Virus record (IMG/VR): IMGVR_UViG_3300037189_001799
Span: 1-33,074 of that record
DNA: 33,074 nucleotides
From: a virus
Strand: one strand, 5' to 3'
This document shows, one piece after another, positions 3,889-33,074 of this stretch. The position numbers and the translations under genes were made by a program. Numbering within the stretch: position 1 is the stretch's first letter; the number at the start of each line of letters is the position of its first letter. Under the pieces are notes generated by a model that searched no databases, was not told the origin of the DNA, and saw nothing but the letters and a program-made list of their open reading frames with translations.

Positions 3889-4039
3889 TATTGGTAGCAG
3901 ACAACCAATGCATCAGTTAAAACTTTGCAACAAATGCGAAGAGAAAAGACCGCCCGAAGGCGGCGTTCAAATGAACCCAAGTAGATGGTATTGCGCTTCA
4001 TGTTGGGCAAAGAAAGTAACCGTTAGGAACCTAAAATGA
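3860..4039 (+). CDS. zinc-ribbon protein, GTG start
   Basis: GTG at 3860 is preceded by GGAAGGAG with five-base spacing, which makes it the best start and gives 59 residues. Two CxxC knuckles, C23-x2-C26 and C45-x2-C48, are separated by 18 residues, the layout of a small treble-clef or zinc ribbon. The protein is otherwise basic. It overlaps the DNA polymerase start by four bases (ATGA), so it may be co-regulated with the polymerase; a nucleic-acid-binding role is likely but unproven. Confidence 0.65.
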   Translation: MNGFVKRQIDIGSRQPMHQLKLCNKCEEKRPPEGGVQMNPSRWYCASCWAKKVTVRNLK

Positions 4040-5940
4040 CACCTGTCTATATAGACTTTGAGACCTTTTGGTCTACTACTCACTCACTGACAAGGATGCC
4101 CCCGACAGAATACGTCATGCACCCTGATACAGAAATACAAGCGGTGGCTATCAAAGTAGCTAACTTCCCGACCGATGTGTACTTTGGCGAAGACAAAATA
4201 CGAAAGGCGTTGCATAGCCTTGACTGGCATGACAAGATTGCCATTGGACACAACATGTCCGGCTTTGATTCCATGATCCTTGCTTGGCGCTTTGGCATCA
4301 AGCCTAAGATGTGGGGTTGCACGCAAGCCATGGCCATGTCCAAATATAAGAAGACCTGTGGTGTATCACTGAAGAACCTGAGCAAAGAATTCAACATTGG
4401 CGCTAAGCTGAGCCTTGAGGCGACTAATACTAAGGGTAAACGCTTAGTTGACTTTACGCCTACTGAGCTTGAGTCCATGAAAGAGTACAACAAGGTCGAT
4501 ACTGACCTGTGTGCGAAGTTGTTCAAAGAACTAGCCAAGGGTATATCCAAGGCCGAGATGGTTCAGATCGATATGACTACACGAATGCTTGTGGAGCCTA
4601 AGTTCAATCTCGACTACAGATTAATCCGGGAGGCACAAGAGTCTGTTAAAGCCGAAAAGAGTCGCTCACTACGTGAGCTAGCCGAGCAGATCGGCATCGA
4701 CGATATCGTGGACGAAGTATCTATTGAAGAGCAAGTGCGTACCCAACTGGCTAGTTCGGCTAAGTTCTCCGAGTTGCTTACGAGCCTTGGCATCGATCCT
4801 CCGATGAAACAGTCGCCGACTAACCCTGCCAAGATGACACCTGCGTTGGCTAAGACCGACGAGGAGTTCATCAAGCTCCAAGAACACGCTAACCCAATCG
4901 TTGCTGCGGCTGCAAGGGCGCGCCTCGAAGTCAAGTCCACGCTGCTGGAGACACGCCTAGAAGCGTTCATTCGTGCGGCTGATGCCTGTGGTGGCAAGTT
5001 GCCCGTGCCTCTTAGATACTGCGGTGCTGACACAACTGGTCGTTGGTCCGGCGAGCAATACAACATGCAGAACCTACCGCGTATAGGTAAAAACCCTAAG
5101 CCATCTGACGCATTACGCATGAGCCTTCTTGCCCCCAAGGGTTACAAAGTTATCGTGGCTGATCTGTCAGGTATTGAACTAAGGGTAAACCACTACTTGT
5201 GGAAGGTTCCGTCGTCTATGGAGATGTATGCGGGCGATGCCGAAGCCGACTTGTACCGAGCGTTTGCTGCTGCAAGGTACGACATTGACCCAGAAGCGGT
5301 AACTAAAGATCAACGACAACTAGCCAAGGTCGCTCAGTTAGGTCTAGGCTTTGGGGCGGGTGCGCCCACGTTCAAGCGTGTAGCCAAACTCATGGGCGGC
5401 TTAGAGCTTACAGATGCCGAGTCGCTGAGCATCGTGACGGATTGGCGTGAGCAGTATTCAGACATTGTGGATGGGTGGAAGTCCTTTCAAAAGAGTCTGA
5501 TCGATCTGATGCAAGGCAATGAGACTGCCATTGATCCATGGGGTATGTGCGTTACCGAACACAAAGCGGTTCGCCTGCCATCAGGCCGACGCATTTACTA
5601 TCCGGAGTTGCGCAAGGAAGTAGACAACGGCAAGCACGAATGGTGGTATGGAGCAGGCCGGCACAAGGCTCGTATCTATGCCGGGAAAGGTGTAGAGAAT
5701 CTTGTCCAAGCCCTTGCCCGAGATGTGATTGCGGGTAACGCCCTTGAGTTTCGTAAGCGCACGCAAATGTCGCCAACACTCATGGTGCATGATGAGCTTG
5801 TTTATGTAGTGCCTGAAACTTATGCTGAGACGCTGCTCAAAGAGTTGCAAAACATTATGCGCACACCGCCTGCATGGTGGCCTGAGTTGGTCACATGGTC
5901 TGAAGGTGACATAGCTGATTGCTATGGAGAAGCTAAGTAG
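4036..5940 (+). CDS. family A DNA polymerase with 3'-5' exonuclease
   Basis: This 634-residue replicative polymerase has a proofreading domain and a polymerase domain but no 5'-3' exonuclease domain. Exo I is IDFET (D7, E9); Exo II is the GHNMSGFD segment (about 74-81); Exo III is YNKVD...L. In the polymerase domain, motif A is DLSGIELR (D376, E381), motif B is RQLAKVAQLGLGFG (K431), and motif C is HDE (H585-D586-E587). All catalytic carboxylates are present, so it should be active. Aligning motif B with the E. coli Pol I O-helix puts Leu435 at position 762 and Phe439 at position 766, instead of the Phe/Tyr and Tyr usual there. It overlaps the zinc-ribbon gene by ATGA. Confidence 0.95.
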   Translation: MTPVYIDFETFWSTTHSLTRMPPTEYVMHPDTEIQAVAIKVANFPTDVYFGEDKIRKALHSLDWHDKIAIGHNMSGFDSMILAWRFGIKPKMWGCTQAMAMSKYKKTCGVSLKNLSKEFNIGAKLSLEATNTKGKRLVDFTPTELESMKEYNKVDTDLCAKLFKELAKGISKAEMVQIDMTTRMLVEPKFNLDYRLIREAQESVKAEKSRSLRELAEQIGIDDIVDEVSIEEQVRTQLASSAKFSELLTSLGIDPPMKQSPTNPAKMTPALAKTDEEFIKLQEHANPIVAAAARARLEVKSTLLETRLEAFIRAADACGGKLPVPLRYCGADTTGRWSGEQYNMQNLPRIGKNPKPSDALRMSLLAPKGYKVIVADLSGIELRVNHYLWKVPSSMEMYAGDAEADLYRAFAAARYDIDPEAVTKDQRQLAKVAQLGLGFGAGAPTFKRVAKLMGGLELTDAESLSIVTDWREQYSDIVDGWKSFQKSLIDLMQGNETAIDPWGMCVTEHKAVRLPSGRRIYYPELRKEVDNGKHEWWYGAGRHKARIYAGKGVENLVQALARDVIAGNALEFRKRTQMSPTLMVHDELVYVVPETYAETLLKELQNIMRTPPAWWPELVTWSEGDIADCYGEAK

Positions 5941-5945
5941 AAACA

Positions 5946-5994
5946 CGGGGTTGACAAACCACATACACACCTATATATTGGTAGTTCGACCCCG
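5946..5994 (+). promoter_or_regulatory. sigma-70 promoter with flanking inverted repeat
   Basis: TTGACA (5951-5956) and TATATT (5974-5979) are separated by 17 bases, an almost perfect host sigma-70 promoter in the 62-base gap after the polymerase gene. It is framed by an inverted repeat, CGGGGTTGA at 5946-5954 against TCGACCCCG at 5986-5994 (eight of nine pairs). The arms cover the -35 box and the expected transcription start, as an operator would. It should drive the nuclease/SNF2 genes. Confidence 0.75.
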
Positions 5995-6002
5995 ACCGAA
6001 TC

Positions 6003-6689
6003 ATGAGTTGGGGCGTGAAGCATTGGAAACATATGATGCCTGCATGGACGTACAGCCAACTTGATTCATTCGAGAGCTGTCCAAAAAAGTTCTATCACTT
6101 AAAAGTGGTTCGGGACGTAGTAGAGCCGCCTACAGAACATACTGTATGGGGTACAAGAGTTCACACGGCCTTTGAAAACTTCATTCTCCATGGAGAACTG
6201 CTACCCGAAGGTATGGATCAGTGGCAACCTATTGCTGACAAGATTGCAAAGCTTGGTGGGAAGAAACACGCTGAACTTAAGTTTGCCATTGACAAGAACT
6301 TTCAACCTGCTGACTGGAAGGAAGCGTGGAGCAGAGGCATCGCTGACTTGGTTGTCATCAACGGCAAAAAGGCAGTCGTCATGGACTACAAGACCGGAAA
6401 GCGCAAGCCGTCTGAGCAACTTGATTTGTATGCCGCTTACGTATTCCACTACTATCCTGAGGTGCAAGAAGTTACAACCGTATTTGTGTGGCTTAAGGAA
6501 AAGAAATTAGATAAGAAAAAAGTCATGCGAAGCGAACTAGCCGATGTATGGCAAGGTTTACTGCCACGAGCAATGCGCTTAGAGCGAGCCTATGACAAAG
6601 ATGAATGGCCTGCACGATCATCCGGTCTGTGTAAGGCGTGGTGTCCTGTTATCACCTGCAGCTTCAACGGCAAGAGAGACAAGCTATGA
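6003..6689 (+). CDS. PD-(D/E)XK nuclease, RecB/Cas4-like, with FeS-type cysteines
   Basis: The nuclease core is readable in order: H54 in GTRVHTAFE, D115 in GIADL, D128-x-K130 in VMDYKTGK, and Q139...Y143 in the QLDLYAAY helix. This is the RecB/AddB/Cas4 branch of the PD-(D/E)XK superfamily, which cuts DNA with divalent metal. One N-terminal cysteine (C26, in SCPKKF) plus three at the C-terminus (C210-x3-C214-x4-C219) match the split 4Fe-4S cluster layout of AddB and Cas4. It is probably a phage exonuclease for replication or recombination. No ribosome binding site is obvious before 6003; ATG at 6033 is an alternative start. The stop is coupled to the VRR-NUC gene by ATGA. Confidence 0.85.
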   Translation: MSWGVKHWKHMMPAWTYSQLDSFESCPKKFYHLKVVRDVVEPPTEHTVWGTRVHTAFENFILHGELLPEGMDQWQPIADKIAKLGGKKHAELKFAIDKNFQPADWKEAWSRGIADLVVINGKKAVVMDYKTGKRKPSEQLDLYAAYVFHYYPEVQEVTTVFVWLKEKKLDKKKVMRSELADVWQGLLPRAMRLERAYDKDEWPARSSGLCKAWCPVITCSFNGKRDKL

Positions 6690-6982
6690 CACCCGAAGGC
6701 AAGGTCAAAGATGCCGTGCGCAAACTACTTAAAGAGCGTACCATTTGGTACTACCAACCCATGCAAAACGGTATGGGGCAAGTCGGAATCCCTGACTTCA
6801 TTTGTTGTTGGAATGGCCGGTTTTTAGGAATAGAAACCAAAGCCCCCGGCAAGCGCAAAGACACGACCGCTAACCAAGACAGAGTGTTAGCCGAGATTAT
6901 CAGCCACGGAGGTCACTCAGTTGTGGTTGACGACGTGAAACAGTTACACGACTTCTTAGACAACATCGCATGGAGAGCATGA
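6686..6982 (+). CDS. VRR-NUC domain nuclease
   Basis: Starting at the ATG coupled to the previous stop gives 98 residues, the size of a stand-alone phage VRR-NUC protein. The catalytic signature is present: GIPDF (D37), IETKAP (E50-x-K52), then a NQDRVL helix with Q64. This branch of PD-(D/E)XK enzymes includes FAN1 and phage Holliday-junction-type resolvases, so branched replication or recombination intermediates are the likely substrate. It lies between the RecB-like nuclease and an HNH-like gene. Confidence 0.9.
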   Translation: MTPEGKVKDAVRKLLKERTIWYYQPMQNGMGQVGIPDFICCWNGRFLGIETKAPGKRKDTTANQDRVLAEIISHGGHSVVVDDVKQLHDFLDNIAWRA

Positions 6983-7248
6983 TGGCTACATCATCTAAAC
7001 AGAAACTCGCATATCAAAAAGATTACAACGCTCGCCCCGAAGAAGTGGCTAAGCGTGTGAAGAATAACGCTGCAAGGCGTGAAGCCATCAAGACCGGCAA
7101 AGCAAAAGTCGGCGATGGAAAGGACGTTGCCCACGTAGTTTCGTTGGCTAACGGTGGTGGTAATACGAAAGGAAATACCAAAGTGCAAGACCAAAAGACC
7201 AACCGAGGATGGAGAAAAGGTAGTGGCAGTTACAACCCGGATAAATGA
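6982..7248 (+). CDS. HNH-like basic protein
   Basis: ATG at 6982 overlaps the VRR-NUC stop and lies six bases after GGAG; the adjacent ATG at 6979 has poorer spacing. The 88-residue protein is strongly basic, with RVKNNAARREAIKTGK followed by GKDVAHVVSLANGGGNTKGNTKV and TNRGWRK. This resembles a minimal phage HNH pattern (DH...GG...N...N.R), but the first motif reads AH rather than DH and there are no zinc-binding cysteines. It may be a degenerate nuclease or simply DNA-binding. Confidence 0.6.
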   Translation: MATSSKQKLAYQKDYNARPEEVAKRVKNNAARREAIKTGKAKVGDGKDVAHVVSLANGGGNTKGNTKVQDQKTNRGWRKGSGSYNPDK

Positions 7249-7480
7249 CTTTCCTACTTGGAATGGGTATTCAAACAAACCATCATTGTTCGGCTATCCC
7301 ATCCCTGATAACGTCAAAGCCGTAGATCATTCCTACGATGTATTGACAGATGGTGTACGTGTTGCATGGGCAACCTACACCGACCCGCAAGTAAAACTGT
7401 GGCATCACATGACTCTTGAACGACCAATAACAGAAGAACAAATAACCGCCCTTATCGTAGCAATGAAACTATCATGCTAA
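7223..7480 (+). CDS. hypothetical protein, 85 aa, GTG start
   Basis: GTG at 7223 has GGAG eight bases upstream and gives a protein overlapping the HNH-like gene by 26 bases. The product shows NDFPTWNGYSNKP, IPDNVKAVDHSYDV and a C-terminal helix ITEEQITALIVAMKL. No family is recognised, and there are no cysteine clusters or membrane helices. It ends seven bases inside the SNF2 gene, so it is probably co-translated with that helicase and may be a partner of it. Confidence 0.55.
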   Translation: MAVTTRINDFPTWNGYSNKPSLFGYPIPDNVKAVDHSYDVLTDGVRVAWATYTDPQVKLWHHMTLERPITEEQITALIVAMKLSC

Positions 7481-9042
7481 TACATAAAGAAAAGAAGGCA
7501 GTGTTACTTAAACTCAAACATCCTGAGAGAGTAACCACTGTCATACCATCAGCAGTAACAGTCAGTTATCAAGGCGGCAAAGTAGTTGCAGTGCCTCACA
7601 GACCTGATGAAACAAGGGTTCTGAGAAACTTAGGTTTTGAAGTCCCTGACCCGATGCCCATTCACTATGCGTGGCCTAAGGTATCCGGCAAGTACGATCC
7701 GTTTGAAGCACAGCGAGAGACCTCAAGTTTCTTATCTATGCACAGTAGAGCGTTCTGCCTTAACGACATGGGAACTGGCAAAACTAATTCTGCCCTTTGG
7801 TCTTATGACTATCTGCGTAGAACAAGACAAGTCAAGCGCATGCTTGTAGTGTGTCCGCTCTCGACCATGGAGCGAACATGGGGTGACTCGGTATTCCAAA
7901 CCTTTCCTCACCTTACAGCCACAGTGTTGTACGGTAACAGGGATCGCAGAGCTAAGTTACTTAAGCAGCCGGCGGATGTTTACATCATTAACATTGACGG
8001 CCTGTCTATCATTAAGGACGAACTAAAAGACCGAGATGACATTGATCTAATCGTCGTTGACGAACTGGCCCTTGCTCGCAATGCAAGCACCGAGCGTTGG
8101 AAGACGTTGAACGAGATTTGTAACAAACAATTCCCACGCAGAGTATGGGGTATGACGGGCTCACCTACGCCTAACGCACCAACCGACGCATGGGCACAAT
8201 GCAAACTCATCACGCCTGACAACCATGACTTACCTAAATACTTTGGTAAGTTCCGCGACCTTGTAATGCGTCAGTTGACACAGTACAAATGGATAGCAAG
8301 ACCGGATGCCAATGACACTGTTTATCAACTCATGCAACCATCGATTAGGTACTCCCTAGACGACTGTGTGGACTTGCCCGAGCAGGTGTTTCTGACCCGG
8401 GATGTTGAGATGACCGACGAGCAAAAGAAAGCATACAAAGACATGCTGAGCAAGCTCGCTACTGAGTACAAGGGCGGCCAGATTCTGGCAGTCAACGAAG
8501 CCGTTAAGGCTAACAAGCTTATTCAAATAGCTTGCGGTGTTGCATACGGAACCAACGGCGAAGAGGTAGTCATACCATCTAAACCACGCATGGATGCACT
8601 GAAAGAATTGATCGACGAATCCAGTGGCAAAGTCATTGTGTTTGTCCCCTTGACCGCGGCGCTTGAGACCGTAGCAAAAGAGTTAGCAAAAGACTGGTCT
8701 GTGGAGATTGTCCATGGAGAAACTAGCAAAGCTGAACGTGACTTGATCTTCTCGTCCTTTCAGAAAACCAACGACCCTCGTGTGCTTGTGGCTAACGCTG
8801 CGACCATGAGTCACGGCTTAACTTTAACAGCCGCTACGACCATTGTTTGGTACGCTCCCGTACACAGCAATGAGATATACGAACAAGCATGTGCGCGTGT
8901 AAGACGACCCGGCCAAACCAAGACAACAGTGATTGCACACATCGCTGGCTCCGACGTTGAACGACGTGTATACAAGCGCTTGCAAGACAAACAATCTATG
9001 CAAGGAATTTTGCTTGAAATGATGAAAGATCGACCCGAATAG
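7474..9042 (+). CDS. SNF2-type superfamily 2 helicase/translocase
   Basis: Two RecA-like domains are visible in 522 residues. The first has motif I GTGKT (G100-T104), motif II DELA (D196, E197; a variant of DEAH) and motif III MTGSPTPN. The second ends with motif VI QACARVRRPGQ (about 471-481), whose arginines complete the ATP site. The GQ after the arginines and the sequence around motif III are typical of phage SNF2 proteins. Such enzymes translocate on duplex DNA rather than necessarily unwinding it. Neighbouring nucleases suggest work on replication or recombination intermediates. The residues before motif I (about 1-75) contain short beta strands of unknown role. Confidence 0.92.
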   Translation: MLIHKEKKAVLLKLKHPERVTTVIPSAVTVSYQGGKVVAVPHRPDETRVLRNLGFEVPDPMPIHYAWPKVSGKYDPFEAQRETSSFLSMHSRAFCLNDMGTGKTNSALWSYDYLRRTRQVKRMLVVCPLSTMERTWGDSVFQTFPHLTATVLYGNRDRRAKLLKQPADVYIINIDGLSIIKDELKDRDDIDLIVVDELALARNASTERWKTLNEICNKQFPRRVWGMTGSPTPNAPTDAWAQCKLITPDNHDLPKYFGKFRDLVMRQLTQYKWIARPDANDTVYQLMQPSIRYSLDDCVDLPEQVFLTRDVEMTDEQKKAYKDMLSKLATEYKGGQILAVNEAVKANKLIQIACGVAYGTNGEEVVIPSKPRMDALKELIDESSGKVIVFVPLTAALETVAKELAKDWSVEIVHGETSKAERDLIFSSFQKTNDPRVLVANAATMSHGLTLTAATTIVWYAPVHSNEIYEQACARVRRPGQTKTTVIAHIAGSDVERRVYKRLQDKQSMQGILLEMMKDRPE

Positions 9043-14180: not shown

Positions 14181-14444
14181 TTAGCAATTCCATGCACGCA
14201 ACGATTTATTGATCCGAGAGTTCGGGTCTTTGGCCGTCTTCTCGCTTGTCAACTTCGACTTCATGCCCTCCATCCGAGCGCAGAAAGAGTCGCGGCGTGG
14301 GCCACCCTGTGGCTGTGGAGCCTTCAGTCCCGGCTTGCCCGGATTGGCTTTGTTGTAAGAGGCTCGCCCTTTTGCGTTGAGACCACCCTTTGGGTCCTTG
14401 CCTTCTTTTCGTGTCCATGCTGCGGTCTTTGGTTTAGTGGCCAT
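14181..14444 (-). CDS. small basic phage protein, DUF6321-like
   Basis: The 87-residue product begins MATKPKTAAWTRKEGKDPKG and continues GGLNAKGRASYNKANPG, PRRDSFCARM.GM and SRINKSLRAWNC. I associate the AWTRKEG..P.GGLNAKGRASYN signature with a conserved phage family (DUF6321 is my best recollection). Function is unknown. Its start overlaps the stop of the giant ejection protein by one base (TAATG), so it is translated with the late virion genes and may be a minor virion or packaging-related protein. Confidence 0.7.
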   Translation of the reverse strand: MATKPKTAAWTRKEGKDPKGGLNAKGRASYNKANPGKPGLKAPQPQGGPRRDSFCARMEGMKSKLTSEKTAKDPNSRINKSLRAWNC

Positions 14445-17400
14445 TATTGTGCTCCAACGAGTTCCTGAGTAAATCGGCGTGTCTGTTTATTAAACTGAAT
14501 ACCGCCGGCTGTCTCTCGCTCACGTTTTGCTTGCGCCTGAGGAGCTTGCAGAAGGTTAGACAGTGGCTCACGCTTGAAGCCTTCGCTGACTCGCTCTTCT
14601 TGGAGTTTATTCCATTTTTCACGAACAGCGCTAGTATCATCACCCTCACGGCGAGCCTTGGTGTATTGATTCTTCAGTTTGGCAGCTTTGTCCTTGAAGG
14701 CTTTTTCTTCTTCAAACTTTATATCCGTCAAGAAGCGACGTTTAGTATCTGATGTAACTGGTACACCAAAGAACTTAGCCGTAGATTCCCATGCAGCAAT
14801 CTCATCTGCGGGAACAAGCACATCGCCATTGAGACGAGTCACACCTTCATTGTTCTCACGAACAGCTTTCATGGCATCTGAGATACCTTTGGGTGCTAGT
14901 TTTTCCAACCCGCGATGGTACTCTCCGCCACCTATTAATTTCAAGCCATCAGCAAAGCGTTGCGCTAACGAGCCTGATGCTCCAAACGCCATGGCAAACC
15001 CTGCTTCAGCAACGCCGGCCTTAGACAAGTCAAAATCAGTAAATGGTAAGACAGACAAAGCGTTACCCATACCAAGTTTGCCTGATAGGTCTATGCCTGC
15101 AGCAGCAGGCGCACCGCGCATGATCAACGTCGCGGCATCTTCACCCCACTGCGAGACCATGGCCTCATACAATTCTTTTTCAAGGTTATAAGGCTCTTCA
15201 TCGTCTCCAAACGTGCCAGCCAAGCCTTTGAGGATAAACGATATGGCAGCAAAACCGGGCATACCCACGAGTCCTGCCATTGCAGCAGTATGACCTAGGG
15301 TAAACGCTAATGCTTTACGAGCCGCAGTACGCTCTTCTTTTGTCCCACCTTTGACAGAGTTTGCCACCAGCTTAGTCAGTAGTGTTAACTGGATTAACTG
15401 GAACTTGCGGAACTGCAAAGCAACTTTACCGGCATTGGTATTAAAAGCACGGGGTGCATTGATGCGGGTATAGTCGCCATGGGTCTGAGCAATTACACTG
15501 TCGGCATACTCAGTAGCATCTTTAATGCTACCAGTCTTAGCCAACTCAAGTCGGTATGCAGCAATGGCCGTGGATACACGGTTAATTGCTTCCATCTTTT
15601 GACCAACAGAACGTAGCACACGATCAACTTTATTTACGGCTTGGGCAGCTTTGCTTTCGCCTGCAACTTGGAACTTGCCAAGTTCGGTCTCCATACCAAT
15701 GTCAATGCGACCACGATCCACCAAAGTGGAAATCATCTTGCGCACATCTGCAGGCACGTTTTCAAAATCAAGCGGTTCGTCGATCTTTTTGTTCTTGTTG
15801 AGGCCGCCAAGCTGGGTGTATGCTTTGAGCAACGCTGCCTGAGCCTTGAAATAATTGTGGCGACCTGCCATGAATGGAACTGACAGCATGACTGGCTGTG
15901 TCAAGTTCTGCAAGTAGTACATTGGGCTTGTAGCCAACATCCATACGGAGGTAACACGGCTAGCCTTGGCAGCAACATCACTCCACTCAGAATTGTCGTA
16001 ACTCAATGACTGGTTGTGGCGAGCCATGATCTCATTAAACAACTGAGACTTCTCAAGCTGATCGCCGCCTTTCTTAGTTTCACGACGCATCTCATTGATG
16101 GCTTCAGTCATCTGTGGAGAATACTTAGCTGTTGCCAAGAACTGTGCATCGGCTCGGCCTTGTGTGGCAAACGAACGCAACATATCAATCTCACCTGCAA
16201 CACCCTTGCGGCGCATCTCAGCTTTACGAGAACTGTTCTCGGCTAACGCAGCCAAATACAAATCGGCTACCACAGCACGGGCTTTTGACAAAGCCTCACG
16301 CTCTTTGGGGTCCGTCACATTGGACAACTCAGCATCCAAATCCCCACGCAACTTGTTAAAAGCCTGCATCAGACCGCCATACATGCGGTTGCTTGGGTCT
16401 TCTTTCTCACGAGCTACCACTTCAGCAAAAGACTTTGTGCCTTCAAGTTCGCGTTGCAACTCAAGCGCCGACGCAGTGGACTCAGCAAAGCTCACATGAT
16501 ACTGGTCAGGATCGCTCTCAAGCTTGGCTTGCTCAGCAGGCGTTGCATCCAAATACTTCTGTGACTTGGCAATCACTACATAGTTACCGAAACGCTTCAT
16601 TGGAGCGTAAGGGTTGAACTCAGATACCGCAAAGAGGCGAGCAAACTGGGCTAACTGCGCCTTTTTGTCCGCTTGGAACTTAGCTACCTTGGCTGTATCA
16701 CCCTTAGCCTGTGCATCTTTAATAAGTGCATCGTACTCAGAGTTCGTGGCATCCATCAAGGTCTGCTTCTTCAGCTTGAGCATGGCATCACCATGGGCAA
16801 ACACTGCCTCAATCCAGTCTTGTGACGGTTGACTCAACGCATCAAAACGCTTGCTCATCGCAGGATCAATCTTGACCTTATCGCTTGTGCCAGTGCGCCA
16901 AGTAGGTTCAAACCCCCACTTCTTTTCACGAGTCATGTCATAGACAAACTTGTTGGCACTCGTGTCGCTAGTACCGCGCTCTTTTACTGGAATCTTGTTA
17001 TACAAAGATGCCACGCGCTCAACGTCACGTTCAATCTGACCTTCAAGGTTTGTACGCTCGCGGTAGATGGTGTCCATCTTCTTAGCCGCTTTGATACCAG
17101 ACTTGACGGCTCGCTTGAATAAATCCTCAGTAAACACCACGGAGTTCAGCAACTTCGACGACACCGCCGAGACTGCCTTGGCCGCAGGAGACTTTAGGAT
17201 TTCTTCTTTGTTGGCTCGTAATTGCCGTCCATTAATTTCTTGAGGTTTGACCCCAGCTTGAACTTGTCCTGACTTAGCACCTTGAACGGCTCCGGCTGTT
17301 TGGGTGCTTGTTGCGGCTTGTTTAATTTTTGCATTTGTGCGCTCCATGAAAGCCGCAGTCAGCGGCAGGTTATCTTTTAAGAACAAGCGGGCTTGCTCCA

Positions 17401-20400
17401 TGCCATTGAAAGCGTACAGTTGCGCAAAGATTTCTTCACGCATACTGTCTGAATTGAGGCCCTTGTTATCCACGAAAGGATACACCATCATTTGCGACAG
17501 TGGAGAATCAGGCTCATTAATGAAATGGTTGTACACCTCACGGGTTACAGCCCCGACAGGACGCAGCTTGCCATTATTAAACGTCAAGTTCAACTCGGGA
17601 GAGCTAGAGTACGTACCGCCTTGACCATCTACAACACCGTCAGCACCGTGGCCAACTTCGTGCATCAATGTAATCGTGGCAAGATATTGATCGTTAAGCG
17701 CTGCTTGGCTAAAGATGATTGTGGGCTTGCCGTCAACCATGGCAAACAGGCCGTCCCACGGAACATTATCGTTTGTGACTAACCAGTTCTCAATGTTCTG
17801 GACGTTGGAAATCAAACCTGCTTTTTGCAGATGCTTGAGGCCATTGGTAATACCGGTGTACTTAACCAGCTTGGCAAGGTTAGTCGGCTGTGTCTTAAAC
17901 GTATTACCGTCGTTGTCTTTCCACTCTTGGCTGGTAGCTGATTTGCTGTAGCGGGCTGTGCCGTCATCAGCTTCAAAGTCTTCGGTGTACATCTCACTGG
18001 CCGTATCGTCGGCAACACGGTCAAAGTCCATGTTGTTTTCAATAACCGTGGAAAGTGATGGCTCAGATGCCAACGTAAAGTCACCGCCAGTACGGGAAGC
18101 TACTTCATCAAGATAACCCTTTTCGCTCTTAGTCAACTCACCATATGAGTTCAAACCGGGCATGTCTTCACGCAGTTGTTCCCACACGTCACGGCCAGTC
18201 AATTCACTTGTTGCGGCTTTCTGTTCAGTCGGCTCGGCCAACGCTGCGGCTTTGCTATTCTTCTTGGTTTTTGTAGGCTTTTTCTTACCTGACAAAAACG
18301 CTGCATACTTTTCCATGGCAGCGACTTGCTTGGCTTGTAGTTCCGTTATTTCCGCTTTTAGTTGGTCGGCGATAGCCGGAACTTCTAGGGCTAGCGCTTC
18401 TAGCTGTTCAATTTTATCGGCGATAGTGTTAACGGCATTTGCCAAAGCTTCATCTTTGACATTCAAAGTATCGCCTACACCTTTAACACCTTGAGCCCAT
18501 GTGCGAGTATCGTCATAGCCAAAACCACCCGTTGCACCTTCTTCAGATTCCACACCGACAGCAGTTAAAGCATCTTCTAAGCCGCCCGTCTTTCCGCCAG
18601 CAGTGGTGCTAACTCCACCTTTTGCAGTATCTGCAACACCTAGTAAGTTACGAGCTTGCGCTTCAGTCATCCCCATGGATACCGCGGCGTTGACCATATT
18701 GGTTGTATTACCAATCTTACGAACCGCCTCTGGGCCAATACCAAACTGTTGACCAATAGCAGCTTGCGCTTTAATAGCGTAGCCCTCAGGAGCGCCTTTC
18801 ATTGCAGCAAGATAAGCTTTGGCAATCTCAATGTCACGAGCTTTGTCTTTGGAGTTCTCAAACGTCTTGTCCAGAATCTGGTCAGTGGCTTGAGCAACAG
18901 CCTCGTCGGTAACATTAGTGTCTTCGCGTTGACCTAAGTTTTCCTCAGTCAAAGCTTGAGTTTCGGCAGTGTTGCCAGTCAATTCACCAATGGCTAACTG
19001 ATCTTCTAAAGAAGTCTGAGCTGGTTGTTCTGCGGGTAAACCCTGATCTTGCTCAGTTGTTGTTTCCGGTGCAACAAACGCTTGGCCTTGTTGTGGTTGA
19101 TCAAACGTAATTCGCTTTTTACGAGAAACTACAGGGGTAGCAGGTTGGCCGGAGACATTTCCGAGAAGTGAAGTTTCATTACCTGCGGGGCTAATTCCGG
19201 CAACACGGGAACCCACGTCTGCCACGGGTCCGCTAGTAAGAGCTGGTCCTGTAGGAGCCACGCTTCCCTGTACGTCAGGGCCCCCAGTTGCCACGCTCGG
19301 TGCAAGTCCTCCTGTAGCGGAAACATCAGTGCTGACATTTTGATCCTCTGGTTTTGGAGCCCGTTGGAATTTAGGCTGATTAGCTATACGCTGTTTCTCT
19401 TGGAAGTCAGCTTCAACTTGCGCAAAAGATTTAGTGGCTTCGGCGTATCGACCCTTTTTAAGCTGCTCAATCGTTTGATCGAACATGGCTCTATCAATTG
19501 CGCCACTGCCAAGCAAATCAACTGCTTTGGTAAACGCTTCAATGCGTTTGACGTTGGGTTTACCTCTACTACCTACAAGACTCAGGCCAACTTTAGACGC
19601 AGCAGCCTGTAAGTCATCAGCAACAACTTGTGAAGTTGTCTCGCCAGATGGTGCTTCAGCAGATGTAAGTGTTCCCAGTTCAGGTGTTTCGTAGCCAAGG
19701 GATGCAGCTTCACCCATGGTAAGTTCGCGCTCAAGGCCATTCTCATCAGTAACGTAACGACCGGATGGCTCGCTCAGGGCTGCTTTAATATCTGCTTCAC
19801 GCGCAGCACGTTGGGCTTTTGTAGCCGCGGGAGTAACACCCGTTTGGACGTTAATTAAGTCCTGCGTAGACAGACCCGCACCCTTGTTGATGCCGAGCAT
19901 TAGGCTCTGGTCAACTGACGGATTGGCCGTGCCAAGAATGTTGGACTCATAAGCGCGGTTGTTCAGATAGGCAACCCCTCCACCTCCGCCAGCGCCCATA
20001 ATGCCGCCAAGGGTAGCTGCACCTACAACACCGCGCATGGGGTCAATCGTGGGGTCATATTGCATTGCAGCAATATTGGCAGAAGCTTTTGTGCCGCCTT
20101 CTTCAATACCCTCTGTAAGAAACTCTTTTCCAGCGGTGCGACGAATACCTTCACGGGTAATGCCGCGAGCACCAGACATAATTCTTTCAAGGCCAGTAGC
20201 ACCGGACAACCCGCCCAAAATAGCAGGCACAACCGATGCCTGACGTGCAGCTTGGCGAGCCATGGATTCTCGTTGGTCCTCTGGAATGTTCGGGCTGTTC
20301 ATCACCTGATCGTAGGCATCAGAAGCAGCATCACCGCCAGCGGCGGCTCCACCCAACGTAGCACCAGTACCAAGGCCAGCAATGCCTTGTCCACGAGCAC

Positions 20401-20866
20401 CTAGACCAAGAGCTTTAGCACCAACAGTGCTGTACTTAACGGCTTTACCTATGGGGCCAAAACCACCAACAATCTTGCCTGCAGTCTGCACAGGAGATGA
20501 TAGAACGTATTTGCCAACACCTTTGACAGCTTCAAAGCCGCCTTCATCCATGGCTTGGCCTAGTTCTTCCTCGGCTTGTTTGACTTGAGGGCTGTAAGTT
20601 TCTTCGCCCTCTTTAATGATGTAGTCTAAACCTCGTGACAGAGGGTTGTCTACCGAAACAAAATCACTAATGCCTTTGACAATACCAAGGCCGGAGTTGA
20701 TCGTTGTAACAACGGTGTCGTTGAGAAACTCTAACGGGTTGCGCATGCCAGAGGCATCGCTTTCGCCTCGCATGGGAACTTTGTAGACCGAAGTAAAACC
20801 TTCAAGTGCCCGCGGTGCATCTTCTCGTGATCTACCGGAAGGAGTAAACCCTTCAATGATTGGCAT
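14444..20866 (-). CDS. giant polyvalent internal virion/ejection protein (PLxRFG type)
   Basis: At 2140 residues this is the largest gene and occupies the T7 gene 16 position. Residues about 110-310 are rich in Gly/Ala with hydrophobic stretches, suggesting membrane insertion. A low-complexity Pro/Gln/Thr region (about 490-650) and a helical, charged part follow. LMHEVGHG gives an HExxH metal site (H1069, E1070, H1073), so a metallopeptidase-like domain is likely. NPYAPMKRFGNYVV (PMKRFG at 1422-1427) is a variant of the PLxRFG motif of large polyvalent phage proteins. Another hydrophobic Gly/Ala segment lies at about 1845-1880. Such proteins are packaged and injected with the DNA. I see no lytic transglycosylase motif. 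Confidence 0.8.
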   Translation of the reverse strand: MPIIEGFTPSGRSREDAPRALEGFTSVYKVPMRGESDASGMRNPLEFLNDTVVTTINSGLGIVKGISDFVSVDNPLSRGLDYIIKEGEETYSPQVKQAEEELGQAMDEGGFEAVKGVGKYVLSSPVQTAGKIVGGFGPIGKAVKYSTVGAKALGLGARGQGIAGLGTGATLGGAAAGGDAASDAYDQVMNSPNIPEDQRESMARQAARQASVVPAILGGLSGATGLERIMSGARGITREGIRRTAGKEFLTEGIEEGGTKASANIAAMQYDPTIDPMRGVVGAATLGGIMGAGGGGGVAYLNNRAYESNILGTANPSVDQSLMLGINKGAGLSTQDLINVQTGVTPAATKAQRAAREADIKAALSEPSGRYVTDENGLERELTMGEAASLGYETPELGTLTSAEAPSGETTSQVVADDLQAAASKVGLSLVGSRGKPNVKRIEAFTKAVDLLGSGAIDRAMFDQTIEQLKKGRYAEATKSFAQVEADFQEKQRIANQPKFQRAPKPEDQNVSTDVSATGGLAPSVATGGPDVQGSVAPTGPALTSGPVADVGSRVAGISPAGNETSLLGNVSGQPATPVVSRKKRITFDQPQQGQAFVAPETTTEQDQGLPAEQPAQTSLEDQLAIGELTGNTAETQALTEENLGQREDTNVTDEAVAQATDQILDKTFENSKDKARDIEIAKAYLAAMKGAPEGYAIKAQAAIGQQFGIGPEAVRKIGNTTNMVNAAVSMGMTEAQARNLLGVADTAKGGVSTTAGGKTGGLEDALTAVGVESEEGATGGFGYDDTRTWAQGVKGVGDTLNVKDEALANAVNTIADKIEQLEALALEVPAIADQLKAEITELQAKQVAAMEKYAAFLSGKKKPTKTKKNSKAAALAEPTEQKAATSELTGRDVWEQLREDMPGLNSYGELTKSEKGYLDEVASRTGGDFTLASEPSLSTVIENNMDFDRVADDTASEMYTEDFEADDGTARYSKSATSQEWKDNDGNTFKTQPTNLAKLVKYTGITNGLKHLQKAGLISNVQNIENWLVTNDNVPWDGLFAMVDGKPTIIFSQAALNDQYLATITLMHEVGHGADGVVDGQGGTYSSSPELNLTFNNGKLRPVGAVTREVYNHFINEPDSPLSQMMVYPFVDNKGLNSDSMREEIFAQLYAFNGMEQARLFLKDNLPLTAAFMERTNAKIKQAATSTQTAGAVQGAKSGQVQAGVKPQEINGRQLRANKEEILKSPAAKAVSAVSSKLLNSVVFTEDLFKRAVKSGIKAAKKMDTIYRERTNLEGQIERDVERVASLYNKIPVKERGTSDTSANKFVYDMTREKKWGFEPTWRTGTSDKVKIDPAMSKRFDALSQPSQDWIEAVFAHGDAMLKLKKQTLMDATNSEYDALIKDAQAKGDTAKVAKFQADKKAQLAQFARLFAVSEFNPYAPMKRFGNYVVIAKSQKYLDATPAEQAKLESDPDQYHVSFAESTASALELQRELEGTKSFAEVVAREKEDPSNRMYGGLMQAFNKLRGDLDAELSNVTDPKEREALSKARAVVADLYLAALAENSSRKAEMRRKGVAGEIDMLRSFATQGRADAQFLATAKYSPQMTEAINEMRRETKKGGDQLEKSQLFNEIMARHNQSLSYDNSEWSDVAAKASRVTSVWMLATSPMYYLQNLTQPVMLSVPFMAGRHNYFKAQAALLKAYTQLGGLNKNKKIDEPLDFENVPADVRKMISTLVDRGRIDIGMETELGKFQVAGESKAAQAVNKVDRVLRSVGQKMEAINRVSTAIAAYRLELAKTGSIKDATEYADSVIAQTHGDYTRINAPRAFNTNAGKVALQFRKFQLIQLTLLTKLVANSVKGGTKEERTAARKALAFTLGHTAAMAGLVGMPGFAAISFILKGLAGTFGDDEEPYNLEKELYEAMVSQWGEDAATLIMRGAPAAAGIDLSGKLGMGNALSVLPFTDFDLSKAGVAEAGFAMAFGASGSLAQRFADGLKLIGGGEYHRGLEKLAPKGISDAMKAVRENNEGVTRLNGDVLVPADEIAAWESTAKFFGVPVTSDTKRRFLTDIKFEEEKAFKDKAAKLKNQYTKARREGDDTSAVREKWNKLQEERVSEGFKREPLSNLLQAPQAQAKRERETAGGIQFNKQTRRFTQELVGAQ

Positions 20867-24286: not shown

Positions 24287-24448
24287 TCAGCTTTCTGGCT
24301 CTGTGTGTGAAGATTTTTGTTTCTCTTCTAAAGCCAACCATTGCTGGTTAAACGTAGTCAACATGCCGCTAGCCAATTCAAGGGTAATTCTGTTACCCAT
24401 GTTGTTTTGCATCATGTTTGCCAAGATTTCAATTAGTTCATTACGCAT
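24287..24448 (-). CDS. small hypothetical protein, 53 aa
   Basis: A short ORF beginning MRNELIEILANMMQNNMG, which overlaps the end of the upstream gene by eight bases and ends 13 bases before the GNAT-like gene. The product is helical and ends in a charged tail (EEKQKSSHTEPES). Overlap with a real gene and correct spacing support it, though it has no recognised family. It fills what would otherwise be a 166-base hole in the virion operon. Confidence 0.6.
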   Translation of the reverse strand: MRNELIEILANMMQNNMGNRITLELASGMLTTFNQQWLALEEKQKSSHTEPES

Positions 24449-24719
24449 TTTCAGCCCTTTGTAAATCTATGTAGTGCCACAAGTCTTCGTTTCTGTATGT
24501 GCCGCTTGGCTTATCAGGAGCCCAAGCAGGGGGAGCACCAACTAATTCTTGATAGTCAGTCCCCAGAATTCTGTACTGCTTTGTGGGAATCTCTAAATCA
24601 AATTTATTTTCTGAGTTTAAGAATCCAACCACTACTCGCACAGCAATTCCAACAGATTCTTCAATCAAATAAATGTCTTCCTTGATAGTAGACGCAGGTA
24701 TATTTATTTCTCTTGGCAT
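24441..24719 (-). CDS. hypothetical protein following tail fibre, 92 aa
   Basis: This 92-residue protein begins MPREINIPASTIKEDIYLI and has strands GIAVRVVVGFL and a segment GAPPAWAPDKPSGTYRNEDLWHYIDL. It starts three bases after the tail-fibre stop, so it is co-translated with it and may be a fibre chaperone or a fibre-associated factor. I do not recognise the family. Confidence 0.6.
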   Translation of the reverse strand: MPREINIPASTIKEDIYLIEESVGIAVRVVVGFLNSENKFDLEIPTKQYRILGTDYQELVGAPPAWAPDKPSGTYRNEDLWHYIDLQRAENA

Positions 24720-24722
24720 AAT

Positions 24723-27134
24723 TTAAGTCCAGACAGGTATATAAAGAGTTGTTGCATCAATTGTAATCTGCATCCAAGTATTTGAACTTGCGCTGCCGGG
24801 TTTATTGGTTCCTGAGAACCCTGCTGTTGCCGCTCCACTTACCGTCCCTTGAACAAACCTCATAACATTTGAGCCAGCAGAACCATTTAATCTATTTGCA
24901 GCATACGCATCTGTTCCCAAAGCAGTTGTGGCAAACGCACTTATTGCTTTCCAAGTACCGTCACTGTTTAAATACGAAGCGGCGGCAGCTGCAACAGAGG
25001 TAGAAGGGGCTAACAATGTCCAAACAGCGCCGCGGTTATTGCTGTAACCCAAACCAAGATCGCCTTGAAAAAACACACAGGGTGACAAAGCGCTGTAAGC
25101 AATGATTGCGTAACCCCCACCGGAACTACTAAATTGGGCGGCATTACCTACTGAATCTGCACGCAATCCAAGCCCTGTTCCGTAGTTGATTGCATAAATT
25201 GTAGGTAAACCAAACGTGCCGGTTGTAGTGCTATAAAAATTCCCCGCTGAACCCGTGCCTGTGTTGTTGCTATAAACTCCCGTACCGGAAGAACTATTAC
25301 TGACATACAAAGAAGCACCGCCCGCATTGGTTGTAATTGCCGCGCCAATGTCGCCAAAACCTGATTGGTTAAAAGAACCGCTTACAGTAAATCTACCTTT
25401 AACAGTAGTTTCACCTCCAAAATAAGCCGCACCGTCAGAACCACGCATCCAAAAGTTTGTTCCTGAAGTAGTTCCTAACGTAGCACCTGAAGATAAAATA
25501 TTTCCTGCAGTTACATTTCCTGCAAAATTTCCCGTTGCTCCAGTAATGTCACCCTTAAACGTAGCAGCCCCGGTTGTAGCATCAATGGTAAACGTTGTAC
25601 TAGCCGAAGTTCTACCAACAATACCTTTACTCGTAAAAGCCACGCCATCACCAGTAGCGTTACCAGAGCCATCAATAGAAATAGTTCCAGTTTTAAATCC
25701 GCCGGCAGAGGAAAATGTAATACCGCCACTCAAAATATCAGCAGCATTCTTATTAAGTTTATTTGTAACTTGTGATAACGCACTGGTTGCATTGGCATCC
25801 GCAGATGTGGCAAGACTTAAGGCGCTAGAAGCATTACCCTCTACCGCTGTCAACGTAGTCCCGCCTGCACCTATGGTGACACTACCAACAATAATAGAAC
25901 CCGCGCTAATCGTACCCTTAACAGTCAGGTTGCCCGCAGCACTAATAGCCACCGAGTTGTTCCACGCACCAGTGTTGTCGTTGTATCCCATGGCAATACC
26001 AGCGGACGAGATACCCACCGCAGGGAGAATGCCTAGACCGGCTGCTGATGTGCCGTTGTACACCGCATCTTTGTGCTGAAACGCAATAAACGCAAGAGAT
26101 GCATCAACTTTGAGGCGGTAGTTAGAACCCGTGCCTGCAAGGATGTTGGTGACTCCAGAGTTTAAATTTGATTGAAGCGTTGAACTAAAACTTGCGGATG
26201 GTAAGGCTCCACTAGCCTGCGATGCAATGATGGACAGGGATGTGCCGCCAGCAGAGTTTAAAGTTACCGAATCAGTAATGATTGCGCCGGCTGATACCGT
26301 ACCCACAAAACTACCCGAGGCTGCAACCAGAGCACCAGCAAATGTAGCCGCTCCCGTTGTGGCGTCAATGGTAAATGTCGTATTAGAAATATTACGACCA
26401 ACAATACCTTTACTTGTAAAAGCTACGCCGGCTCCGGTAGCATTACCGGAACTATCAACAGAAATCGTACCGGTTTTAAATCCGCCAGCGCTGCTAAATT
26501 CAATCGTTCCGCTAAGAATGTCAGCAGCATTCTTATTAAGTTTGTTTGTAACCGATGCAGCGTTATTTACCACATCACTAACTAAGGTTGACCCAAGGTA
26601 CGCGCTGGCTGAAATAACAGATGCCGCCCTAATTGTTCCTAACAAAGTCAAATTACCCGTGGAAGATTCAATGGCAAAGGTTGTCTGCCACACACCGTCA
26701 GATGTTCGGTTGTATCCACCTAAAATACCTGTGGATGTAATGCCTAAACCGGTTCGGACAGTGCCGGAGTAAGCGCCAGTTGTGCCAAGGACAACTGCAT
26801 CTTTATGTTGAAACACAACGTACTGACCGGCAGGCTCTAACTTCATAACGGTTGTGCCGTTAGTTACACCAGTAATTACTTCTGCTGCACCGCGTTTTAA
26901 ATCAGCAGTCAACGTGTCCAGCGTATAGGATGGAGCAAGGTTGGTAATGTTTGTACTACTAACACCACTGCCAAACGTAGATGCTCCGCCTACTGGTGTT
27001 AGCGCTGTGTTTGTATTTGTACTAGTGCCAGAGTCGATGACCACTTGCATGTTTCGACTAAGAACATCTAACACCGCCCTCACTTGAGGGTCAGCTACCG
27101 CGTATGTCGGTGGGAGTGGAATAAAGTTAGACAT
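24723..27134 (-). CDS. tail fibre protein with internal duplication
   Basis: ATG at 27134 overlaps the preceding gene by eight bases and gives MSNFIPLPPTYAVADPQVRAVL, a typical phage tail-protein start; a longer open frame extends upstream without support. The 803-residue protein is rich in Gly/Ser/Thr/Ala and beta-prone, as trimeric fibres are. Residues 195-270 and 456-531 are near copies of each other, and a shorter FQHKDAV unit is repeated at 108-114 and 352-358. The C-terminus (about 600-803) is non-repetitive and probably holds the receptor-binding or tip domain. No enzymatic motif or intramolecular chaperone is evident. Confidence 0.75.
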   Translation of the reverse strand: MSNFIPLPPTYAVADPQVRAVLDVLSRNMQVVIDSGTSTNTNTALTPVGGASTFGSGVSSTNITNLAPSYTLDTLTADLKRGAAEVITGVTNGTTVMKLEPAGQYVVFQHKDAVVLGTTGAYSGTVRTGLGITSTGILGGYNRTSDGVWQTTFAIESSTGNLTLLGTIRAASVISASAYLGSTLVSDVVNNAASVTNKLNKNAADILSGTIEFSSAGGFKTGTISVDSSGNATGAGVAFTSKGIVGRNISNTTFTIDATTGAATFAGALVAASGSFVGTVSAGAIITDSVTLNSAGGTSLSIIASQASGALPSASFSSTLQSNLNSGVTNILAGTGSNYRLKVDASLAFIAFQHKDAVYNGTSAAGLGILPAVGISSAGIAMGYNDNTGAWNNSVAISAAGNLTVKGTISAGSIIVGSVTIGAGGTTLTAVEGNASSALSLATSADANATSALSQVTNKLNKNAADILSGGITFSSAGGFKTGTISIDGSGNATGDGVAFTSKGIVGRTSASTTFTIDATTGAATFKGDITGATGNFAGNVTAGNILSSGATLGTTSGTNFWMRGSDGAAYFGGETTVKGRFTVSGSFNQSGFGDIGAAITTNAGGASLYVSNSSSGTGVYSNNTGTGSAGNFYSTTTGTFGLPTIYAINYGTGLGLRADSVGNAAQFSSSGGGYAIIAYSALSPCVFFQGDLGLGYSNNRGAVWTLLAPSTSVAAAAASYLNSDGTWKAISAFATTALGTDAYAANRLNGSAGSNVMRFVQGTVSGAATAGFSGTNKPGSASSNTWMQITIDATTLYIPVWT
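25542..25769 (-). repeat. tail-fibre internal repeat, copy B
   Basis: This stretch encodes residues 456-531 of the tail fibre and is a near copy of 26325-26552. Bases 25738-25769 match 26521-26552 at 31 of 32 positions. The repeat starts VTNKLNKNAADILSG and ends TIDATTGAATF. Confidence 0.75.
26325..26552 (-). repeat. tail-fibre internal repeat, copy A
   Basis: This stretch encodes residues 195-270 and is the partner of 25542-25769. Similarity at both protein and DNA level points to an intragenic duplication or recombination rather than convergent fibre composition. Confidence 0.75.
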
Positions 27135-32221: not shown

Positions 32222-33074
32222 TCAAAAAGTAATAGAACCATTGGCTGTAAATCGGTAGACCCTAAAGCCTCCAGCCACAGTAATCGTTGGTGAACCTGTT
32301 GTGCTTGTTGCGGCTCTAAATGTGTCTGGATAACGAAGGATGACGATACCGCTACCGCCATTACCACCAGCAAGAGAGCCGGTAATATTATCTGCGCCGC
32401 CGCCACCGCCACCTGTATTAGCAGTTCCTGCGGTGGCTCCACCGCCATTACCACCGCCACCAACGCCGCCAATGCCACCACCAGCAGAACCCGTATTTCC
32501 TCCTCCACCACCACCGGCATAAACAACTAAGGAGCCAGAAATAGAGGAAGCAATACCTGCGCCGCCATTAGTTCCTGTGTTTACACCAGAAACATTATCC
32601 AATCCTTGAGTTCCAGCGCCGCCGCCGCCTTGTCCCGGTATGCTTGTGCCACCGCTAGTACCGCCGCGATTGCCTTGCCCAGAAATACCTGAACCACCTG
32701 CTTTTGGCCCACTACTGCTATTACCAGTAGAACCGCCGCCTGAACCACCTGCACTACCGCTAGTTCCGTTGGCTCCGCCACCATATCCAGAACCGCCGCC
32801 GCCGCCGCCTGAAGCAGTTATAGAGTTAAAAACAGAATTTACTCCGTTTGTTCCTTGGACATATCCGCCAGCGTATGTTCCGCCAGCGCCAATAGTAATT
32901 GTAATTGCAGAATTTGTGGTGATTCCAACAAAGCCAGCAAGTAAGCCGCCAGCACCGCCACCACCACCACGATCTCCACCACCACTGCCACCACCAGCAA
33001 CGATCAAATACTCCACATTCTGGGCAGGGATGCCAGTCCAGTTATTGTCTTTTACAGCTTGAGACACCTGCGAG
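32222..33074 (-). CDS. glycine-rich tail adhesin, C-terminal part (partial)
   Basis: The frame is open to the right edge of the window: the GTG at 33067 is not preceded by an in-frame stop, so the gene probably begins outside. It encodes EYLIVAGGGSGGG-type segments and then long runs of Gly, Ser, Asn and Thr in many GGxG patterns, ending with GGSGIVILRYPDTFRAATSTTGSPTITVAGGFRVYRFTANGSITF split over the last ~45 residues. Such domains occur at the C-termini of phage tail fibres and gp38-like adhesins and carry receptor contacts. DNA on this stretch is triplet-repetitive. Confidence 0.75.
   Translation of the reverse strand, partial: SQVSQAVKDNNWTGIPAQNVEYLIVAGGGSGGGDRGGGGGAGGLLAGFVGITTNSAITITIGAGGTYAGGYVQGTNGVNSVFNSITASGGGGGGSGYGGGANGTSGSAGGSGGGSTGNSSSGPKAGGSGISGQGNRGGTSGGTSIPGQGGGGAGTQGLDNVSGVNTGTNGGAGIASSISGSLVVYAGGGGGGNTGSAGGGIGGVGGGGNGGGATAGTANTGGGGGGADNITGSLAGGNGGSGIVILRYPDTFRAATSTTGSPTITVAGGFRVYRFTANGSITF

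Follow-up and report, generated by a model that had tools for sequence, protein, structure and literature searches.

The window analysed here, a 33,074-nt stretch of virus DNA (IMG/VR record IMGVR_UViG_3300037189_001799), carries a tail fibre gene with two copies of one module, B1 and B2. We suggest that a cassette made up of a linker and the module A2 was probably gained in the window, or lost in its nearest relative (L001), by recombination in B, that is, by module shuffling. The B copies flank a linker-A2 segment of ancestry other than that of A1, and we therefore take the repeat as a likely trace of such shuffling. The fibre would thus be laid out as an N-terminal anchor, A1, B1, A2, B2, a distal region and a conserved C-terminus.

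The fibre gene (803 aa, 24723..27134) is an open frame on the minus strand, read from 27134 down to 24723; an ATG at 27290 opens a longer ORF of 855 aa. The gene is located within a virion structural cluster, between P0002 (27127..29127, minus strand), a virion structural protein gene assigned to phrog_511, and a 92-aa gene (24441..24719, minus strand) that adjoins the fibre and served as bait for collecting relatives. The upstream product is 90% identical in amino acids to L003, which is encoded on the contig of L001. The order of a P0002-like structural gene, a fibre and a small gene is common to the window and Aeromonas phage phiARM81mr, in which the gene in the fibre position is annotated as 'tail tip fiber protein'. 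Neither the window fibre nor that of L001 matched a Pfam or PHROG family. Among the relatives sharing its modules, L061, L062 and L101 match Peptidase_S74 and tail fiber PHROGs, and L102 matches the tail fiber PHROGs phrog_5616 and phrog_31 (central tail fiber J). The fibre identity of the window protein hence comes from its position and shared modules, not from a family match of its own. The name 'tail fibre' in the initial annotation is borne out to that extent by gene order and module-sharing relatives, while the sequence itself lacks a match to a named family. Called by position and shared modules, the protein appears to be a modular tail fibre of putative receptor-binding type.

Residues 1–94 (26853..27134, minus strand), presumed to be the virion anchor, align without gaps with L001. 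At the other end, the fibres of L061, L062 and L101 terminate in Peptidase_S74 and the other module-sharing fibres in a short TTLYIPVWT-type end. The latter end is also common among the fibres beside relatives of the 92-aa gene, a set in which S74 is a pattern label only. A tblastn search of the phage collection with the 855-aa ORF gave no match, and the best E-values of the PDB profile searches were 0.57 and 0.023. A monomer model of A1-B1, built from 14 alignment rows (pLDDT 69.5, pTM 0.33), displays a helix followed by strands in A and B alike. In a fold search with this weak model, the top PDB matches were to T4 gp34 and not significant (E 0.037, TM 0.2), and nothing was found among viral models at E ≤ 0.001. 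The B profile also weakly matches A1 of the window (16 bits) and of L001 (15 bits). Together with the model, this suggests that A and B may be distant versions of one shaft unit.

Module B1 occupies residues 195–270 (26325..26552, minus strand) and B2 residues 456–531 (25542..25769, minus strand). Over 76 codons, the copies share 82.9% of amino acids and 75.4% of nucleotides at an offset of 261 aa (783 nt). The best 76-aa offset score was 311, whereas 30 shufflings of the fibre protein never exceeded 63, which confirms that the repeat is real and far above chance. The initial annotation had described these residues as near copies with correct coordinates, to which the minus strand is to be added. 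Its two further observations also held: 31 of 32 bases are identical between 26521..26552 and 25738..25769 (both minus strand), and FQHKDAV, at residues 108 and 352, recurs at a different offset (244). According to the alignment, the 17-residue discrepancy mostly corresponds to about 18 extra amino acids between A2 and B2. Two plus-strand ORFs, at 25546-26079 (177 aa) and 26227-26772 (181 aa), run antisense to the fibre, one per B copy; they are probably incidental to composition and the repeat.

Since the window is an IMG/VR virus record, the structure might in principle come from two phages joined in assembly at a shared word. The frame is open throughout; moreover, 25% of bases are mismatched between the B copies, the longest word that the gene repeats exactly is 23 nt, and synteny with one relative holds on either flank. 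On the divergence of the copies, the shortness of the shared word and the synteny, we reject an artefact as the main explanation and find it hardly credible. Diversity-generating retroelements feature a nearby reverse transcriptase, and their repeats differ specifically at adenines. No match to PF00078 (reverse transcriptase) was found in the 33-kb record, possibly a fragment, and the mismatches between B1 and B2 are spread over all four bases. Variation of this type was rejected on both grounds.

L001, a 55,634-base virus contig found both by its fibre and by its upstream gene, is the only close relative found with a whole fibre; the L004 contig breaks off within the upstream gene. The initial annotation had suggested comparing repeat number among relatives, and it does differ: the L001 fibre has 543 aa versus 803 aa in the window and is shorter by exactly one period. 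The two fibres align end to end save for a 261-residue gap (window residues 211–471, the register being arbitrary within B) and small gaps in the distal region. Left of codon 247, the single B of L001 resembles B1 at 16 of 24 informative sites, and from codon 247 onward it resembles B2 at 18 of 19 (maximum chi-square permutation p 0.00025). Codons 195–246 alone supported no breakpoint (p 0.60). Within these codons, B1/B2 differ at 31 of 156 bases, B1/L001 at 37 and B2/L001 at 44, and B1/B2 came out nearest in 4061 of 5000 bootstraps. Omitting the first 12 codons lowered this count to 2111 of 5000 and put B1/L001 ahead with 2843. The clear signal is that the odd part appears to be the right end of B1, where it runs into the linker: from codon 247 B1 departs from both B2 and L001, and the right end of B2 is like L001.

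A B that is B1-like on the left and B2-like on the right is also what a deletion between the two copies predicts. It may be that the fibre has long consisted of two units, A-B-A-B, whether by duplication or by acquisition, and that B1 and B2 recombined in the L001 lineage, deleting one period. With a single close relative, gain and loss are not firmly separable, because the L001 mosaic is expected under both. We regard this older two-unit state as rather unlikely, for a reason that comes from the more distant fibres considered below.

The A modules bear on the ancestry of the segment between the B copies. A1 (residues 95–194, 26553..26852, minus strand) is 86% identical to the A of L001, and A2 (residues 339–455, 25770..26120, minus strand) is 43% identical to A1. 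In a tree of eight A modules, which leaves three of its five inner branches open, A1 clusters with L001, L061 and L062, and A2 with L101 and L102 (support 100/99). A tree of 14 B rows left B1, B2 and the B of L001 unsorted, with no well-supported set containing B1 or B2. Residues 247–455 (25770..26396, minus strand), comprising the right end of B1, the linker, A2 and a coil, form a probable foreign cassette within the period absent from L001.

The order of B end, linker and A2 is shared with L102, whose B-linker-A segment is 55% identical over 160 aa. L101, which has two tandem A modules, is 49% identical to the cassette region over 188 aa. The contig of L102 (read as L105) encodes matches to tape measure and distal tail families, and that of L101 (read as L104) carries a phrog_31 gene followed by the A-A fibre. 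The GC3 of residues 271–455 is 0.449, compared with 0.276 in B1, 0.250 in B2 and 0.392 in residues 1–194, a contrast that would mildly favour a separate origin of residues 271–455. The best relatives of the cassette are just 49–55% identical, so that no close donor was present among the sequences searched. In the phage collection, tblastn of residues 245–455 gave no match, and the L102 segment gave one weak match, to Bacillus phage vB_BauM_KLEB27-3 (19% covered, E 6e-4). A profile search of reference genome contigs with B and A2 confirmed none.

The initial annotation had read the repeat as a recent internal duplication. Several features accord with the idea that an A-B block of the window fibre was recently duplicated in tandem, namely the A-B-A-B order with near-constant spacing, the 31 of 32 identical bases at one place, the first 12 codons of B, where B1 and B2 agree against L001 at eight sites (the other pairings at one site each), and the dS values, by which B1/B2 is the closest pair. 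These values, which are rough, were over the 76 codons 0.89 for B1/B2 (NG86), 1.29 for B2/L001 and 1.84 for B1/L001, and the nucleotide identity of B2/L001 equals that of B1/B2 (0.754). The same B1/B2 dS argues against a recent event. The B1/B2 mismatches number 56 of 228 nt, 32 of them at third codon positions, and 17 of 33 fourfold sites are identical; N-terminal residues 2–194 of the window and L001 differ with a similarly rough dS of 1.11 (46 of 84 fourfold sites identical). Thus 'recent' did not stand, as the B copies (about 0.9) are diverged nearly as far as the N-terminal parts of the two fibres (about 1.1). Nor did duplication of the whole unit, given that A2 belongs to another clade than A1. 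In addition, when codon pairs of the repeat were shuffled, the 32-base stretch was not exceptional within it (permutation p 0.094 for 76 codons and 0.053 for 88 codons), and it was rejected as a significant conversion tract. Recent block duplication was rejected on the B1/B2 dS and the clade split of A1 and A2, and we consider it very improbable.

It should be noted that the B1/B2 dS is lower than that of either copy versus L001; copying or conversion within the window lineage may therefore account for at least part of B. A small conversion tract in the first 12 codons of B is possible, judging by the eight shared sites. A further point in favour of the older two-unit state is that the B1/B2 dS (0.89) is comparable in size to that of the N-terminal parts of the window and L001 fibres (1.11).

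Relatives of the 92-aa gene were collected from 54 loci with scans whose short-pattern prefilter may let relatives slip through. In 53 of these loci, all but L058, the 92-aa relative has an ORF of 150 aa or more immediately upstream. The ORFs of L012, L013 and L051 are open-ended, with L051 possibly not encoding a fibre; the L001 contig is itself among the loci, as L006, and several other loci are near copies of one another. Among the 54 proteins surveyed for internal repeats, window included, only two had a strong one: in the best stretch, 45 of 50 residues agree in the window and 35 of 50 in L015, the next value being 20 of 50. A profile search for A and B in all loci collected up to that point, those found by other routes included, left 28 rows after dropping those with the same last 150 residues, the row of L005 being the window. 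Two strong B modules occur only in the window, and A-B-A-B is its order alone. A-B was found in L001, L061 and L062, A-A in L101, B-A in L102 and B without A in 21 rows; A modules occurred in the window and these five named fibres. The B of L062 is a weak match (46 bits), weak second partial B matches occur in L091 (11 bits) and L096 (14 bits), and two contigs, L064 and L065, apparently carry one and the same fibre.

Because L061 and L062 each have a single A-B unit, one unit is more likely to be the older state, which favours gain in the window lineage. Were two units the older state, these more distant fibres would require repeated loss, although this comparison comes from a very small sample in which the B of L062 reaches 46 bits.

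The second strong repeat belongs to another module than A or B and is likewise not recent. The L015 fibre (1,272 aa) contains adjacent 90-aa units at residues 623–712 and 713–802, whose best stretch is identical at 35 of 50 residues and 103 of 150 nt; residues 807–883 form a third, weak unit (14 bits). A profile of the two units matches 27 of 53 other fibres with at most 38 bits, compared with 166 and 162 in L015 itself. The fibres of L016 (1,059 aa) and L019 (1,081 aa) are shorter, with a break in the region of the L015 repeat, and are about 69% identical or more elsewhere.

Based on the above results, we propose the following course of events for the window fibre. Recombination within the conserved B would bring in a cassette of B end, linker and A2, leaving two B copies one period (261 residues) apart with the frame intact; conversely, the L001 form would arise if B1 and B2 recombined with each other. 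Homologous recombination is the presumed mechanism, and the event would presumably be a gain in the window lineage rather than a loss in L001. Its product would be a longer fibre shaft behind the same kind of tip, which might in turn affect adsorption and host range. More tentatively, and with rather little confidence, B may serve as a common adapter in the fibres of unlike phages and in J-like central fibres, with cassettes gained or lost in frame by whole periods. If so, shaft length and content would change without touching the anchor or the tip.

The distal region (residues 532–708, 25011..25541, minus strand) ends in one of the most divergent parts of the compared region. It is followed by the conserved C-terminal domain (residues 709–803, 24726..25010, minus strand), which ends in TTLYIPVWT and is highly identical to L001; residues 711–803 show 97.8% nucleotide identity and a rough dS of 0.08. 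Identity between the window and L001, taken per 150 columns, is mostly 70–97% in the compared region. The distal lows of 60 and 65% at 25280-24987 give way to 99 and 97% at 24986-24687 and to 87–97% across the 900 bases that follow; identity also drops, to as little as 54%, at 21389-21094. The sharp edge near 24986 points to a recent exchange and to recombination of fibre parts that is independent of the repeat.

Elsewhere in the record, a glycine-rich protein (PF21722) is encoded at 32222-33067 on the minus strand. In L001, the glycine-rich protein that lies past the shared neighbour gene is a different one, without meaningful similarity to that of the window, and the window protein is possibly a second, exchangeable adhesin. 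The C-terminal third of a 2,140-aa protein (14444-20866, minus strand) matches DarB-like antirestriction/PLxRFG proteins (phrog_10089), and the protein is 25–29% identical in the best 12 of 69 phage records. Genes for DNA polymerase A, a PD-(D/E)XK nuclease and an SNF2-type helicase lie in one stretch on the plus strand (4036-9042).

The window and L001 provide a natural phage pair whose fibres differ by exactly one period, and they place the mosaic exchange inside one module. They illustrate one way in which the length of fibre shafts may change, and leave the general picture as it is. They also counsel caution, as an internal repeat need not mean that the whole stretch was duplicated.

Among the closest known systems, phiARM81mr shares the gene order, and its structural gene is 28.7% identical; unlike the window fibre, its product ARM81mr_p63 has 1,322 aa and matches PHROG tail fiber families. 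With the J-type central fibre L102 (phrog_31, phrog_5616), the window fibre shares the B-linker-A order and, by eye, a similar C-terminal end. Unlike J-type proteins, it has no PHROG match and nothing of the J body, so that the kinship is one of modules only. In crAss-like phage tails, BACON arrays are described as having evolved in two lineages mainly through separate domains being transferred horizontally, and in a third through duplication (PMC6949934). The window fibre resembles these arrays in its tail-associated repeated domains; BACON is a named family with longer arrays, whereas the window fibre is built from another domain and matches no Pfam or PHROG family. A literature search on repeat number in fibres returned other subjects only, among the matches listed. 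Receptor-binding proteins are reported to have a mosaic domain structure, with recent between-family mosaicism in tail fibres and spikes (PMC10684548). Like those mosaic fibres, the window shares modules with otherwise different fibres and has conserved and variable parts side by side; as a difference, it carries two copies of one module flanking another and is known here from sequence alone. We do not claim that these modules are absent from the literature; the window case is a further example of known fibre mosaicism and domain transfer.
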